DNA of 32,752 nucleotides from Herpetosiphonaceae bacterium (lineage in GTDB: Bacteria; Chloroflexota; Chloroflexia; Chloroflexales; Herpetosiphonaceae): the NCBI GenBank assembly GCA_013813565.1, contig JACCRK010000057.1:1-32752 (forward strand). The letters are read 5' to 3'. Position numbers and translations under genes: made by a program. Under the pieces are notes generated by a model, which was not told the origin of the DNA, did not search any database, and was given only the letters and a program-made list of their open reading frames with translations. This document shows, piece after piece, positions 5,583-12,125 of the stretch (positions are counted from its first letter, which is position 1; each line of letters begins with the position of its first letter).

Positions 5583-7190
5583 TCAGAAGAACTCGTCCTC
5601 GTCGTCCTCGACGCGGGCGTGAGGAATCTCGACCTCCAGCATCACACCGCCACGGGTCTGCTGGTGCAGCCGAAAGCGCCCCTTGACCAGGGCGACCCGC
5701 TCGCTGATGCCGAGCAGCCCGTAGTGACCGGCGGCGGCCAGCGCGGCCAGGTTGGTGTCATCGGTCAGCCCGCGCCCGTTGTCGGCGATGGTGAGGAGGA
5801 GCGAGCGTTGCGAGGTGGACTTGAGGCTGATCTGGACCGCGCTGGCCTGGGCGTGCTTGCGCACATTGCTCAGGCCCTCCTGAATCATGCGGAAGATCGA
5901 GATCTCGATCGCATCGGGCAGCCGGCCGAGCGATTCCTCGATCTCCAGCGACACAGCGATCCCGCTGCGGCTGCTCCACTCGCTGCTGAACGACTGGATG
6001 GCCGCGCCGACGCCCAGGCTGTCGATCGTCGGCGGGCGCAGGACCCCGCAGATATCGCGGACGGCGGTGACCAGGCCGCGGATGCTATCGCGCAGCTCAA
6101 TAATCGTGTCGTGGGAGTCCTCGGGGTCGGCGATATCGGCGCGCAGCTCATCGATGGCGTAGTTCAGACTGACCAGATCCTGGATCACCTGGTCGTGCAG
6201 CTCGCGGGCCAGGGCCTTGCGCTCCTGCTCGCGCTCGCTCAGCAGGCGGCGCTGGGCATCTTGCAGGGCGGTGTTGGCCCGGTCGAGGCTGGTGACCTGC
6301 TCGGCCAGCTGGGCGATCAGCTGGCGGTTGAGCGTGTCCTGGGCCGCCAGATCGTGCTCCAGCACCCGGCGCTGCTGACGGAGCGTCTCGGCCTGCTCGC
6401 GGGCGCGGTGGTAGCTGTCGAGCGCCCAAATCATCGGCGTCAGATGCTGCTGATCGCTGGCACCGATCTGGGCGCTGACCACCGACTCGCGGCTGGTCGC
6501 ATCGGTATCGACGGCCAGCACCAGCCGCCCGTGGCGGAGCACCAGAATCCGGTCGGTCACCGCAAACAGGTGATCGAGGTTCTGGCTGCTGAACAGCACC
6601 GCCACGCCCTGGCTTTGCCACGTGCGAATCAGCTCGAGCAGCGTCTGCTGGTACTCGTAGCGCAGCAGCGTGGTCGGCTCATCAACCACGACCAGCCGGG
6701 GCGAGCGGGCCAGCACCTGGGCGATGGCCAGCATCTGGCGATCTTCGCCCGACAGGTTGCCGACGCGCTCACGGAGCGATGGCACGCTGACCCCAAGCTG
6801 GGCCAGGATGTGGCTGGCGCTGTTGTCCATGGCCCGCTGGTTGGGCGTATTCAGCCAGGAGAGCCGCCGCAGCCCGCCGACCTCGTGGCCCAGAAAGATC
6901 GTCTCGCTGACATCGAGGTGTTCGACCAGGGCCGGGTGCTGATGGATCACGGCAATTCCCAGGGCGTGGACCTGCCCCGACGAGGTGACCGGAGTATCAT
7001 CAAGGCTAATTGCGCCGCTGTTGGGAGCTTCGAGACCAGCGAACATGCGCACCAGCACCGATTTGCCGGCGCCGCTGAGGCCGGTCAGACCCACCACCTC
7101 GCCTGACCGCAGATCAAAGCTGAGATCCTGCAGCACCGGCAGGGTCCCAAAATGTTTCGACACATTGAGGCAGCGAACGAGCGATTCCAT
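5583..7190 (-). CDS. ABC ATPase - histidine kinase fusion protein
   Basis: The protein has 535 residues and no signal peptide or membrane helix. Residues 1-230 form an ABC ATPase domain of the sugar-importer type: Walker A GLSGAGKS (37-44), Q-loop Q84, signature LSGED (146-150) and Walker B VVVDEP (D170, E171). The usual switch His is Gln (Q203 in FSSQNLDHLF), and the D-loop lacks its Asp (TLLR). Residues 261-325 look like a coiled coil. Residues 320-525 are a NarL-type kinase: HisKA_3 with ARELHDQ (phospho-acceptor H332), N-box N442, G1 box DNGRG (470-474) and G2 box GLLG. An acidic tail follows. AGGAGCG sits three bases before the ATG. It is the last gene of the transporter operon, behind a strong hairpin. 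It probably signals transporter state to the regulator at 11058. A fully active transport ATPase is less likely given the lost residues. Confidence 0.9.
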   Translation of the reverse strand: MESLVRCLNVSKHFGTLPVLQDLSFDLRSGEVVGLTGLSGAGKSVLVRMFAGLEAPNSGAISLDDTPVTSSGQVHALGIAVIHQHPALVEHLDVSETIFLGHEVGGLRRLSWLNTPNQRAMDNSASHILAQLGVSVPSLRERVGNLSGEDRQMLAIAQVLARSPRLVVVDEPTTLLRYEYQQTLLELIRTWQSQGVAVLFSSQNLDHLFAVTDRILVLRHGRLVLAVDTDATSRESVVSAQIGASDQQHLTPMIWALDSYHRAREQAETLRQQRRVLEHDLAAQDTLNRQLIAQLAEQVTSLDRANTALQDAQRRLLSEREQERKALARELHDQVIQDLVSLNYAIDELRADIADPEDSHDTIIELRDSIRGLVTAVRDICGVLRPPTIDSLGVGAAIQSFSSEWSSRSGIAVSLEIEESLGRLPDAIEISIFRMIQEGLSNVRKHAQASAVQISLKSTSQRSLLLTIADNGRGLTDDTNLAALAAAGHYGLLGISERVALVKGRFRLHQQTRGGVMLEVEIPHARVEDDEDEFF

Positions 7191-7215
7191 AAACGCTCCT
7201 CATGATTCAGAAAAC

Positions 7216-7252
7216 AGCGATCGGCTATAGGAGCGTCCTACAGCCGATCGCT
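7216..7252 (-). terminator. Strong intercistronic hairpin (attenuator or terminator-like) before the ABC-kinase gene
   Basis: AGCGATCGGCT (7216-7226) pairs perfectly with AGCCGATCGCT (7242-7252). Inside it TAGGA pairs with TCCTA around a three-base loop, with one mismatch between the two stems. On the minus strand the stem is followed by GTTTTC, a weak T-tract. It lies between the permease and kinase genes and would lower kinase expression relative to the transporter. The loop arm CGCTCCT is complementary to the kinase Shine-Dalgarno AGGAGCG (7200-7194). Confidence 0.7.
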
Positions 7253-7334
7253 GACCATTTGTCTGCCGGGCGTCACCAGGGAACGTTCCAGGATCGGGCG
7301 GCAGCCGATTGAGCGCGGGAGCACTCCCCGATCG

Positions 7335-8582
7335 CTAACGCCCAGTATTTTCGCGGCGTGAGCGGGTCGAGGCATCGAGGGTAACGGCGATCAGCAGCAC
7401 GGTTCCAGTGACCATAAATTTGATCGCGGAAGACATCGCCAGCAAATCCATGCCGTTAGCGATCGCGCCAATCACCAGCGCCCCGAGCAGCGCCGACCAG
7501 ACTCGGCCCCGGCCGCCAAACAAACTTGTGCCGCCGATAACAGCGGCGGCGATCGCATTCAGCAACGTATCGCCGCCGCCAGACGCTTGATTGGAAGCAT
7601 ACAGGCGCGAAGCGGCCAGAACACCGCCACAGGCGGCCAGCGTCGAGCACAGCATAAAGACCGCGATGCGAATACCGTTGACATTGATTCCGGCGCGCCG
7701 GGCCGCCTCAACGTTGCCACCGACGGCATAGATATAGCGGCCAAAGCGGGTTCGGCGGGTGATGAAGTCAAATATAATCAACACAGCGATGAAGATAACA
7801 ACCGCCGAAGGAATGCCGCGCACCGCTGCCGCCTCGACATTTGGATTGCGATTGATGCTCATGAAACCGATTGTCACCACCGTCACCAGCGCAATCAGCC
7901 CGATTCGCCAGGCCAGCATAACCGTCGATTGAACCGGAAGATTCATCGCCTGGCGTCCGCGCTGCTCGGCGATCAGAATGGCGGCATAGGCCACAATCGC
8001 GATTATCCCGATCACAAACCCAGCTTCAATCGAGACCCGCGAGTTGGCAATTCCGATAATTGTTTTATCGGTCAGGTTGACTGTGCCGGTTGTCCCCAGC
8101 ACATACAGCAGGGCTCCTTGCCAGGCCAGCAATCCGGCCAGGCTGACCACAAACGAAGGCACGCGAAATTTCGCAATCCAGAAGCCTTGCAAGGTGCCAA
8201 TCAGCGTCCCGGTTGCGATCCCGGCGAGAATTGCCAGACCGGCCGGCCAGCCCTGCTTAACCGAGAGCACCCCCATCACCGCCGACGCCAGGCCGCTGAC
8301 CGCGCCGACCGAAAGGTCAACCTCACCCAGCAGCAGCACCAGCACAATCCCAACCGAGATCGTGCCCATCGACGCAATCTGAACGGTCAGGTTGGTTAAG
8401 TTAACCGGGGTTAGAAACTTATCGTTGGCGATCTGGAAAACCAACGCAATCATCGCCAGGCCAATCAGGACCGGCAGCGGGCCTACGTTGCCCTGCTGAA
8501 AGCGGCGCACAATACTGGGCCAGAGCGCCTCTTTCTCTACTGCTGGCATGTCGGAACGGGTATGTGGGGTAACCTGTTTCAT
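7335..8582 (-). CDS. Sugar ABC transporter permease (XylH/RbsC-like, CUT2 class)
   Basis: The 415-residue polytopic membrane protein has about ten hydrophobic segments. GEVDLSVGAVSGL is the conserved cytoplasmic-loop motif of the xylose/ribose permeases, and RTRFGRYIYAVGGNVEAARRAGI is the EAA-like region that docks on the ATPase (NPVAARLSGI in relatives). The start at 8580-8582 gives MKQVTPHT and has AGGAG upstream at about 10 bases. The longer frame to 8720 would overlap the ATPase gene and adds a non-membrane arginine-rich stretch, so it is rejected. In the CUT2 class a permease homodimer forms the channel. It follows the binding protein and ATPase genes in one operon. Confidence 0.93.
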   Translation of the reverse strand: MKQVTPHTRSDMPAVEKEALWPSIVRRFQQGNVGPLPVLIGLAMIALVFQIANDKFLTPVNLTNLTVQIASMGTISVGIVLVLLLGEVDLSVGAVSGLASAVMGVLSVKQGWPAGLAILAGIATGTLIGTLQGFWIAKFRVPSFVVSLAGLLAWQGALLYVLGTTGTVNLTDKTIIGIANSRVSIEAGFVIGIIAIVAYAAILIAEQRGRQAMNLPVQSTVMLAWRIGLIALVTVVTIGFMSINRNPNVEAAAVRGIPSAVVIFIAVLIIFDFITRRTRFGRYIYAVGGNVEAARRAGINVNGIRIAVFMLCSTLAACGGVLAASRLYASNQASGGGDTLLNAIAAAVIGGTSLFGGRGRVWSALLGALVIGAIANGMDLLAMSSAIKFMVTGTVLLIAVTLDASTRSRRENTGR

Positions 8583-8628
8583 CGTAAAAAAACTCCTAAC
8601 GCCCGTACAGCGTCGTACATTTGATTGT

Positions 8629-9408
8629 CTACCCGGCGGCAACCGCAGCCGGCAATGTCGCGCCAGTGATCGCCCCAACCACTTCCTGGGCCGTTGATTG
8701 GCTGGTGTCAAACGTGGCAACCCGGCGCCCGAGGCGCATCACCACGACGCGGTTCGCTACCTCAAAGACATCGGCCAGATTGTGGCTGATCACAACCACG
8801 CCCAGCCCGCGCGAACGCAGACGCTTGATCAGTTCCTTGACCTGAAAGGTCTGTTCAACCCCAAGCGCGGCGGTCGGCTCGTCAAGCAGGACGACTTTGG
8901 AGTTCCACATCACCGAGCGGGCGACCGCCACCGACTGGCGCTGGCCGCCGGAAAGCGTCGCAATCTGGCTGCGCACATTCGGAATCTTAACACTTAATTC
9001 GCGCAGCACATCGGTGGCTTTGCGTTCCATTTCAACTTCGCTTAGCAAATGCAGCGGGTGCGGGCCGGTGACCCGAACACCCTCGCGGCCAAGGTATAAG
9101 TTTGCCACAACATCTAAATTATCACATAACGCTAAATCTTGATAGACAGTTTCAACTCCAAGGTTCGTGGCCTCGCGCGGGGTATGGATGGTGACTTCAC
9201 GACCTTCAAATATATACTGGCCGGAGTCGGGACGGTAGGCTCCGGCGATTGTTTTGACCAGGGTGGATTTTCCAGCGCCGTTGTCACCGACCAGAGCCAC
9301 GACTTCGGCGGGATAAACTTCAAAATCAACATTTGAAAGCGCCTGCACCGCGCCAAAACGCTTGCTGATCTGGCGGAGCTGCAAGACTGGAGTAGGATTT
9401 GCTGCCAT
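8629..9408 (-). CDS. Sugar ABC transporter ATP-binding protein, single nucleotide-binding domain
   Basis: The protein has 259 residues with all canonical motifs: Walker A GDNGAGKS (41-48), Q-loop VYQDLAL (Q90), signature LSGGQ (152-156), Walker B LLDEP (D176, E177) and switch His209 in ISHNL. The family relatives RbsA, MglA and XylG usually have two such domains in about 500 residues; this one, like FrcA, has a single domain. It could work as a homodimer, or pair with the ABC domain of the kinase encoded two genes downstream. AAAGGAG lies about nine bases before the ATG. The gap to the permease is 46 bases. Confidence 0.94.
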   Translation of the reverse strand: MAANPTPVLQLRQISKRFGAVQALSNVDFEVYPAEVVALVGDNGAGKSTLVKTIAGAYRPDSGQYIFEGREVTIHTPREATNLGVETVYQDLALCDNLDVVANLYLGREGVRVTGPHPLHLLSEVEMERKATDVLRELSVKIPNVRSQIATLSGGQRQSVAVARSVMWNSKVVLLDEPTAALGVEQTFQVKELIKRLRSRGLGVVVISHNLADVFEVANRVVVMRLGRRVATFDTSQSTAQEVVGAITGATLPAAVAAG

Positions 9409-9547: not shown

Positions 9548-10666
9548 CTATTTCAGCCCAACGGTTGCACAGGCGGCGGCAAAGTCGCCGGTGCAGATTT
9601 GCTCAAGCGACCAGAATGCATCTTTGACGATGGTGTCGCCGATGTTGGCGCTCGTGACAGCGAGTGGGGTCAGCAGCACGGATGGAACATCCAGCTTGCC
9701 ATTGGCAACTTTAGAGCTTGCATTGTTGACCGGGGTTTTGGTCAGCAGTGCGTAGGCGATCTCAGCGGCGGCTTCGGCTTCAGGCTTGATGGCCTTGTAG
9801 ACAGTCATATACTGCTCGCCGACAATAATGCGCTGCACTGCGGCCAGCTCGGCATCCTGGCCGGTGATTGGCGGCAGCGGGTTCAGGCCGGCCGACTTCA
9901 TTGCGGCGATGGCGCCACCGCCGGTGCCGTCGTTGGCCGCGTAGACGCCATCGACTTTGTTGCCCATGGCGGTCAGCGCCTGCTGCATCTCATTCTGGGC
10001 CTCGTCTGGGCTCCAGCCGGGGGTGTCGTATTCTTTGACGATCGTCAGCTTGCCAGCGGCAACCAGCGGATCGAAGATGCTGTGCGCGCCTTTTTTGAAC
10101 AAGGCAGCGTTGTTATCAGTTGGCGATCCGTTGATCATCACAATCTGGGGGTTGGTTTTGCCCAGTCTGGCCAGTTCATCAACCAGGCTCTGCGCCTGCA
10201 GCTTGCCGACCTGCTCGTTGTCGAATGAGATATAGTAGCTGACGCCATCGGAGTTGAGGATCAAGCGATCGTAGGAAATAACCGGAACGCCCTGCGCTTT
10301 GGCCTTGTCGGCGATGATCGCGGCAGCGGCCGAATCAACCGGGTCGAGGACCATCACCTGGACGCCGTTGGTCAGGGCCGCTTCGGCCTGTTGAAGCTGC
10401 AGGCTAGCATCGGCATTGGCGTTGTTATAGATAACCTCGCATGTAGGACAAAGCTGTTTCATTTTAGCTTCGAAGTAGGGGCGGTCGGCGGTTTCGTAGC
10501 GGGTGGTATCGGTGTCGGGCAACAGCAGGGAGATTTTGCCACTGACTGCGGCGGCGCCACTGGCGGATGGGGCGGTGGTGGCGGGGGTCTCGGCGCCACA
10601 GGCGGCGATAATCAGCGAGGCCAGCACCACGACGAGCATGAACGAGAAGCGTTTACGAGCTTGCAT
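9548..10666 (-). CDS. Sugar ABC transporter substrate-binding lipoprotein (XylF-like)
   Basis: The protein has 372 residues. It begins MQARKRFSFMLVVVLASLII followed by AAC, a lipoprotein signal peptide with Cys23 as the lipidation site, then an Ala/Ser/Thr linker. The mature part is a type I periplasmic sugar-binding fold with GKISLLLPDTDTTRYETADR, the VMVLDPVDSAAAA strand and YAANDGTGGGAI, all typical of xylose/ribose-type binding proteins. The start at 10664-10666 has GGAGT upstream; the longer frame to 10696 lacks a site and would disturb the signal peptide. It is the first gene of the minus-strand operon. The sugar cannot be named with certainty; D-xylose is the best guess. Confidence 0.93.
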   Translation of the reverse strand: MQARKRFSFMLVVVLASLIIAACGAETPATTAPSASGAAAVSGKISLLLPDTDTTRYETADRPYFEAKMKQLCPTCEVIYNNANADASLQLQQAEAALTNGVQVMVLDPVDSAAAAIIADKAKAQGVPVISYDRLILNSDGVSYYISFDNEQVGKLQAQSLVDELARLGKTNPQIVMINGSPTDNNAALFKKGAHSIFDPLVAAGKLTIVKEYDTPGWSPDEAQNEMQQALTAMGNKVDGVYAANDGTGGGAIAAMKSAGLNPLPPITGQDAELAAVQRIIVGEQYMTVYKAIKPEAEAAAEIAYALLTKTPVNNASSKVANGKLDVPSVLLTPLAVTSANIGDTIVKDAFWSLEQICTGDFAAACATVGLK

Positions 10667-11057
10667 TTGGGGGACTCCTTTGTCGAACAAAAACAAATTT
10701 CAGCACTGATATAGCGATTATTCAAGCGTGAGCAGTTGGGTGCGCGCAGCTCCTTTCAACACTGGAAGGCTCAGGATAGGGCGGCCTCTTCAGCAGCCGG
10801 AAGGTGAAACTGTCCCCAGGGCGGATCGCAGCGTCGCTGATTTGAGAAAATCTGTGTCAATCCAGGTCGGGGCTGAAGAAAGGTGATTTGCCTAAACCTC
10901 AAGGTTGTGGCACGATTGCAGGGAACGTTTCAAGTGATACTGAGTAGTATAGCGATCACGACGCGATCCACTCAACCCCTACTCCCCTAATTTACTAGAG
11001 CGATTCCCCTCAATATGCTTGGGGGAAATCCCCTAAAGCAGGATAAGCGAGGGTGTG
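10667..11057. other. Divergent intergenic region between binding protein and response regulator
   Basis: The 391 bases contain no convincing gene. It must hold promoters for both the transporter operon (minus) and the regulator (plus), but no textbook -35/-10 pair stands out for either. Repeats of a CCCCT motif lie near the regulator, and a small palindrome AACCTCAAGGTT-like element lies at 10895-10906. Confidence 0.6.
10974..11037 (+). promoter_or_regulatory. Repeated TCCCCTMAA motif upstream of the response regulator
   Basis: Copies start at 10983 (TCCCCTAA), 11005 (TCCCCTCAA) and 11029 (TCCCCTAAA), spaced 22 and 24 bases, about two helical turns. A related ACCCCTAC lies at 10974 and an inverted copy TTGGGGGAA at 11019-11027. 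The last copy ends about 20 bases before the regulator start. They may be binding sites for the regulator itself. Confidence 0.45.
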
Positions 11058-12125
11058 ATGCAACTCAATGACGAGACTCAGCAGGCGCGGATTGTCGTCG
11101 CCGACGATCACGCGGTGGTGCGGGCAGGCATCTGTGCGGCGATCAACGATCTGCCGAATCTGCGGGTAGTGGCCCAGGTTGGCGATGGGCCAGGCGTCAT
11201 TGTGGCCCTGGCCGAGCACAAGCCCGACGGCCTGGTGATCGACGTGAGCATGCCGAGCTTCGACCCGCTGCGGGCCGTCCGGCAGATTCGTGCCACCTAC
11301 CCCGGCCTGAAGATTCTGGTCGTCAGCGCCTACGACGATGATGTCTACGTCCAGGGGCTGCTGCAGGCCGGCGTCGACGGCTACCATCTCAAGGATCAGC
11401 CGCTCGACGATATGCGCCTGGCGATCCAGCGGGTGCTGGCGGGCGAGCGCTGGGTGTGCAGCCCGCTACTGACCAGGCTGATGCGCGGCCCGCAGGTGCA
11501 GGTTGCGGATGTGGCCCTGACCCAGCGCCAGCGCGAGCTGCTCTGGTGCCTGCAGCAGGGCGACGACAACCACACCATCGCCCGGCGCATGAACCTGAGC
11601 GTCAAAACCGTGGAGAACCATCTGACCCGGCTGTACCGCCAGCTGAACGTGCAGAGCCGCCTGGAGGCGGTCCACTATCTCTCCCAGCACCCCGAGCTGC
11701 CGCTGGCGGTGCTGGCCGAGACCCCGTTCGCCGCGCCGAACTCGCCGATCACCGTGCTGCTGGTCGATGACAACAGCCGCTATCGCCAGCACCTGCGCCG
11801 GATGGTCGGCAAAGTCTGCCCGCAGGCGTTTATCCTGGAGGTGGCCACCACCCAGGAGGCCATCGAGGCCGCCCGCAGCCTGCCGCATCTGGCGCTGGTC
11901 GATGTGGTGCTCGGCGATGAGGATGGCATTATCTGCACCCACTGGATCAAGGCCACCGCGCCCAGCACGCGGGTGATTCTGATCAGCGCCTACCCCGATC
12001 GCGAGTTTCGCCGCCGCGGCCTGGAGGTCGGCGCGATCGCCCTGCTGGATAAAAAAGACCTCGACAGCGCGGCGCTGCGCGAGGTGATTGAAGATTGTCT
12101 GGAAAGCATGAAGCACGAGGTTTAA
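11058..12125 (+). CDS. Response regulator with REC - LuxR HTH - REC architecture
   Basis: The protein has 355 residues. The first receiver (about 11-130) has acidic pair D17/D18 in VVADDH, phospho-acceptor D62 (VIDVSMP) and K112 (HLKD). A LuxR/NarL helix-turn-helix follows at 153-210 (LTQRQRELLWCLQQG, then TVENHLTRLYRQL). A second receiver occupies about 232-345, with D237/D238 (LLVDDN), D282 (LVDVVLGDEDG) and the Lys in LLDKKD. Having the DNA-binding domain between two receivers is unusual. The start at ATG 11058 has GAGGG upstream; GTG 11055 is possible. It is divergent from the transporter operon that ends with an orphan NarL-type kinase, its most likely partner. It is followed after one base by the M55 peptidase gene. 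Confidence 0.92.
   Translation: MQLNDETQQARIVVADDHAVVRAGICAAINDLPNLRVVAQVGDGPGVIVALAEHKPDGLVIDVSMPSFDPLRAVRQIRATYPGLKILVVSAYDDDVYVQGLLQAGVDGYHLKDQPLDDMRLAIQRVLAGERWVCSPLLTRLMRGPQVQVADVALTQRQRELLWCLQQGDDNHTIARRMNLSVKTVENHLTRLYRQLNVQSRLEAVHYLSQHPELPLAVLAETPFAAPNSPITVLLVDDNSRYRQHLRRMVGKVCPQAFILEVATTQEAIEAARSLPHLALVDVVLGDEDGIICTHWIKATAPSTRVILISAYPDREFRRRGLEVGAIALLDKKDLDSAALREVIEDCLESMKHEV

Follow-up and report, generated by a model that had tools for sequence, protein, structure and literature searches.

The window analysed here, a stretch of 32,752 nucleotides from a Herpetosiphonaceae bacterium (contig JACCRK010000057.1 of assembly GCA_013813565.1), encodes an ABC-ATPase/histidine-kinase fusion next to the genes of a XylFGH-type sugar transporter, with a response regulator gene transcribed divergently from the latter (Table 1). 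Pfam profiles place ABC_tran at residues 20-174 of the fusion (PF00005, E 7e-29), HisKA_3 at residues 323-387 and HATPase_c at residues 429-524, and no transmembrane-like segment was seen in the protein. The top NCBIfam models for the N-terminal half are ATPases of the xylose, galactofuranose and arabinose types, the best being a xylose ATPase (E 4e-41), while the XylG equivalogs TIGR02633 and NF010069, both of which span 2 nucleotide-binding domains (NBDs), give 131 and 141 bits, under their curated cut-offs of 724 and 699. The C-terminal half is matched best by the MctS, UhpB and NarX kinases. It retains the phosphoacceptor histidine and the N and G boxes, with N442, D470, G472 and G474 invariant, and by these marks is classified as a NarL/UhpB-type HisKA_3 histidine kinase. 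An AlphaFold2 model of the fusion built on 65 homologues (overall pLDDT 77, pTM 0.48) is confident in the NBD, where block pLDDT is mostly 85-93 and drops around residues 101-120, and moderately confident in the kinase; the intervening linker is helical but poorly modelled. Foldseek groups the N-terminal half with solved ABC NBDs in the PDB, and sequence searches of the PDB return generic ABC NBDs.

Table 1. Features of the fusion locus, with positions in the window and residue numbers of the fusion protein.
Feature	Position	Strand	Remarks
ABC-ATPase/histidine-kinase fusion	5583..7190	-	535 aa; ATG start, GAGGAG ribosome-binding site before the ATG
N-terminal XylG/RbsA-like NBD (about residues 1-237)	6480..7190	-	Walker A, Q-loop and Walker B kept; Glu149 at second signature Gly; Gln203 at switch
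Walker A GLSGAGKS (residues 37-44)	7082-7059	-	
Q-loop Gln84			fusion NBD
Signature LSGED (residues 146-150)	6755-6741	-	
Walker B VVVDEP (residues 167-172)	6692-6675	-	
D-loop TTLLR (residues 173-177)	6674-6660	-	
Switch Gln203 in SSQNL (residues 201-205)	6590-6576	-	
Helical, coiled-coil-like linker (about residues 241-322)	6225..6470	-	AlphaFold2 helices 247-280 and from 286
HisKA_3 dimerisation/phosphoacceptor domain	6030..6224	-	ELHDQ; His332 in 72/72 fusions
HATPase_c domain	5619..5906	-	motifs N442, DNGRG, GLLGI
Hairpin	7215..7253	-	18-bp arms, 3-nt loop, then UUUU; between xylH and fusion; terminator/attenuator-like
XylH/GguB-like sugar permease	7335..8720	-	461-aa ORF, possibly with an internal true start; coupling loop canonical, GGNVEAARRAGI
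XylG-like single NBD	8629..9408	-	259 aa; LSGGQ and switch His retained
XylF-like sugar-binding lipoprotein	9548..10696	-	TIGR02634 E 1e-77, under curated cut-off
Divergent intergenic region xylF/regulator	10697..11054	.	
REC-LuxR HTH-REC response regulator	11055..12125	+	predicted partner of the fusion kinase

Residue pattern of the fusion NBD

Residue conservation was counted over 72 fusion sequences, all from Chloroflexota and including close relatives (55 NBDs are left at <85% NBD identity), and compared with a control alignment of 12 single XylG NBDs and the first and second NBDs from 36 tandem proteins, Escherichia coli RbsA, XylG and MglA among them. A first-pass annotation of the window had described intact Walker A and Walker B motifs, an LSGED signature, a TLLR D-loop and a glutamine, Gln203, at the switch position, and all of these readings are correct and fall inside 6480-7190. 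Across the family, the Walker A lysine (Lys43) is present in all 69 fusions with a residue there, and the Walker B aspartate (Asp170) in 72 of 72. Close homologues with a histidine at the switch, which would have spoken against its reported loss, were looked for and not found among the 72 fusions: the position is occupied by D in 40 sequences, N in 11, Q in 8, K in 4, G in 4, S in 3, Y in 1 and E in 1, whereas all 12 single NBDs and all 36 first NBDs of the controls (48/48) have the histidine. Even more distinctive is the second glycine of the signature (position 149), which is replaced by glutamate in 70 of the 72 fusions and in none of the 48 catalytic single or first NBDs; this substitution, mentioned only in passing in the first-pass annotation, is on these alignments the strongest feature of the domain. 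The catalytic glutamate that follows the Walker B aspartate is retained in 39 of the 72 fusions, which makes slow hydrolysis possible, and is replaced by aspartate in 29. The A-loop aromatic residue is mostly retained.

The D-loop had also been taken as a sign of poor hydrolysis, but this argument is unspecific. The aspartate is present in just 1 of the 48 catalytic single and first NBDs and missing in the other 47 (Fisher p 0.4), so that its absence was rejected as a marker of the fusion and is better regarded as a trait of the XylG/RbsA family as a whole. The second NBDs of RbsA and XylG lack the switch histidine as well, with serine at this position in 35/36, but they have lost the Walker A lysine and kept LSGGN. 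The fusions thus differ from second NBDs in retaining the Walker A lysine and the Q-loop glutamine, and from first NBDs in having lost the histidine and gained a glutamate in the signature. The combination of a missing switch histidine, Glu149 and conserved Lys43 and Asp170 is, as counted here, beyond chance.

The switch histidine stabilises the transition state of hydrolysis (PMC7468199). The signature glycine replaced in the fusions is the one altered in CFTR G551D; in ABCB10, changing the second signature glycine to aspartate or valine reduced hydrolysis, and signature-glycine mutations in other ABC proteins spare ATP binding (PMC4459825). With a glutamate in the signature and no switch histidine, the fusion NBD should bind ATP without efficient turnover, and we regard it as probably ATP-binding and hydrolysis-defective. 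The earlier suggestion that such a pattern fits a sensor or regulatory half holds insofar as binding residues are kept, hydrolysis residues are lost family-wide and the kinase usually lies beside sugar-importer genes, but its D-loop component falls away.

Origin, distribution and partner regulator

In a quick phylogenetic tree, all 55 fusion NBDs of the non-redundant set cluster in a single clade (SH-aLRT 99), which falls towards the first and single NBDs and not with the second NBDs. An origin from the second NBD of RbsA was rejected on this tree and on the retained Walker A lysine. Of 400 Chloroflexota genomes sampled, 27 encode the fusion, each with E below 1e-211, as do 21 of 60 near relatives; no fusion was found in 397 genomes of Actinomycetota, a set without a positive control. 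In a scan of GTDB species with patterns derived from the window protein, which distant fusions would escape, every full-length fusion came from a record titled as Chloroflexota or one of its subgroups.

In the response regulator of the window, a second REC domain follows the LuxR HTH, and near-full-length matches to this REC-HTH-REC protein track the fusion phylum-wide. Such regulators occur in 28 of the 400 Chloroflexota genomes, including 27 of the 27 that encode the fusion and 1 that does not (Fisher p 4e-41, a value that overstates independence because the genomes are related). In H. aurantiacus, the fusion gene lies approximately 465 kb from the xylFGH-regulator cluster, so that the pairing is not a matter of linkage alone. 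The REC-HTH-REC regulator is thus predicted to be the cognate partner of the NarL-type fusion kinase.

Transporter neighbourhoods and a proposed model of permease docking

A single-NBD XylG is encoded near the fusion in the window and in relatives, many loci carry a tandem XylG, and in Herpetosiphon isolates the fusion does not lie next to the xylFGH-type transporter genes. At 13 of 64 loci, an extra permease (BPD_transp_2) and binding protein (Peripla_BP_4) are encoded directly upstream of the fusion, and where such loci also hold xylFGH, the latter comes with its own ATPase. Two loci, L033 and L081, show the regulator and the fusion with only a permease and a binding protein, and no further XylG-like ATPase was found in the 14-16 kb of sequence examined at each. 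In these permeases, the coupling-loop motif GGNxEAA of XylH and RbsC is changed (e.g., to GRDERAL), with the flanking GRYIY mostly retained, as would be expected if they dock a different NBD. A dedicated permease and binding protein were not found in the window genome (76% complete) or in those genomes of Herpetosiphon and Chloroflexus that were checked; there, XylF and XylH would serve both transport and sensing, with XylH shared with XylG. Two further arrangements were noted in this survey. A xylose-type binding protein is tandemly duplicated within one reading frame at 5 loci (L042:3249-5579, L044:3760-5949, L056:2658-4925, L058:2918-5080 and L076:7301-9439), and a large protein with FG-GAP/UnbV_ASPIC repeats is encoded between xylH and the fusion at 2 others (L047:2507-4465 and L048:2634-4487).

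In ABC importers, the segment that follows the Q-loop contacts the permease. The corresponding segment of the fusion, NIFLGxE, contains an invariant glutamate (Glu103), and residues 94-104 have an expected identity of 0.52-0.58 to XylG/RbsA, compared with 0.30-0.33 for the whole NBD. We favour, with a probability of roughly 0.6, a reading of the locus in which a sugar permease is the docking site of the hydrolysis-defective NBD, which relays the state of the permease to the fused kinase. The fusion would then be the cytoplasmic half of a receptor built from the parts of a sugar ABC importer, and its NBD a retired XylG/RbsA-type ATPase that has kept its ATP-binding loops and permease-docking segment. 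Two copies, joined through the linker and the HisKA_3 dimer, would dock beneath a permease dimer, formed by XylH in the window and by the dedicated permease in many relatives. Delivery of the ligand, presumably a sugar, by the binding protein would change the state of the permease and move the NBD pair, and this movement, transmitted through the linker helices, would switch the kinase on or off. Phosphorylation of the REC-HTH-REC regulator by the kinase could then control the transporter genes, its presumed targets. A more far-reaching version, to which we give slightly less than even odds, is that the importer as a whole (binding protein, permease and NBD) has been turned into a sensor, with the hydrolysis-dead NBD-kinase replacing the ATPase subunit and the importer cycle driving phosphorylation instead of transport. 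In this version, Glu149 may have been selected as a lock, so that closure of the NBDs hinges on the permease and not on ATP turnover.

The same residues allow other readings. The NBD could be a soluble energy sensor through which the cytoplasmic ATP/ADP ratio sets the kinase by nucleotide binding, without contact to a permease, and the invariant Walker A lysine and Walker B aspartate, the mostly retained A-loop aromatic, the lack of a transmembrane segment and the separation of the Herpetosiphon fusion from the transporter genes are all consistent with this. We nevertheless consider it unlikely, given that permease and binding-protein genes lie directly upstream of the fusion in many loci, 2 of them without another XylG-like ATPase nearby, and that the permease-docking segment resembles XylG/RbsA more closely than the domain does on average. 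Contact with the permease is also assumed if the fusion NBD and XylG form a mixed dimer on XylH, in which case the kinase would be the regulatory subunit of an importer that works or is throttled. RbsA and XylG normally have asymmetric NBD pairs (PMC11466899), and the neighbouring single-NBD XylG would be a ready partner. Yet both composite sites of such a dimer would be defective (the Walker A of XylG facing the glutamate-containing signature, and the Walker A of the fusion lacking the histidine), the tandem XylG of many loci already provides both NBDs, and the HisKA_3 dimer favours pairing of 2 fusions, which together make this arrangement quite improbable. Finally, the NBD might be a decaying remnant retained as a mere tether, in keeping with the free variation of the D-loop and of the first signature glycine position. 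This we hold to be very improbable indeed, as fusions down to about 40% identity show little or no variation at Glu149, Lys43 and Asp170, and a glutamate in nearly every sequence is not expected of random decay.

Relation to known systems and further elements of the window

The RbsA, XylG and MglA ATPases of sugar importers are clear homologues of the fusion NBD, which groups in the tree with their first NBD and the single XylG domains; unlike them, it is joined to a histidine kinase and carries the 2 substitutions described above. The kinase half similarly matches NarX/UhpB-type HisKA_3 kinases, including the H-box and N/G-box residues, but its input is an ABC ATPase domain instead of a membrane segment or periplasmic sensor. 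In the XylFII-LytS system, the binding protein acts directly on a membrane kinase. XylFII-LytS/YesN-XylFGH of Clostridium beijerinckii unites a xylose-type binding protein, kinase, regulator and XylFGH in one sensing module (mentioned in PMC7017829), and the fusion cluster pairs the same kinds of components; its kinase, however, contains an ATPase domain and lacks any transmembrane-like segment of the kind expected of a membrane LytS. In the flux-sensing BceAB-BceS modules, a kinase senses the state of an ABC transporter (PMC10314905), but BceS is a separate membrane kinase held via transmembrane helices, with BceA as an ordinary ATPase subunit, whereas the fusion lacks the 2 transmembrane helices through which a BceS-type kinase contacts BceB. 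A retired ATPase domain inside the kinase as the coupling device would set the fusion apart from both systems.

We found no description of an ABC-ATPase/histidine-kinase fusion in the open-licence literature, although it may be described elsewhere, and a kinase survey (PMC4558063) makes no mention of ABC domains in its main text. The fusion system appears to be a transporter-coupled two-component system in a form for which we found no description, in which importer parts were apparently turned, in one group of Chloroflexota, into a receptor reporting extracellular sugar. How a kinase reads transporter state is still being worked out for BceAB-BceS-like modules; if our reading is true, the link here would be covalent, since kinase and ATPase subunit would be one protein. 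Loci in which the regulator and the fusion are accompanied by only a permease and a binding protein would offer a minimal system in which to ask whether an ABC permease can signal without transport, and in this family natural selection would have produced a counterpart to the signature substitution of the CFTR G551D type.

Among the remaining elements of the window, the interval 7191-7334, which contains the hairpin between xylH and the fusion, has a fold z-score of -4.8; the hairpin could be an attenuator that holds the kinase below transporter levels. In the divergent intergenic region, the block TTGTGGCACGATTGC at 10905-10919 is partly conserved in 2 relatives, and L032 shows a TGCCACA/TGTGGCA palindrome. 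No 9-mer common to 3 intergenic regions was found, and the block is a weak candidate for an operator or regulator site. Beyond the fusion gene, a transposase-like gene is split into 2 ORFs (1423-1998 and 2139-2780), one with the HTH half and the other with the DDE_3 half, as in a broken or frameshifted insertion element.
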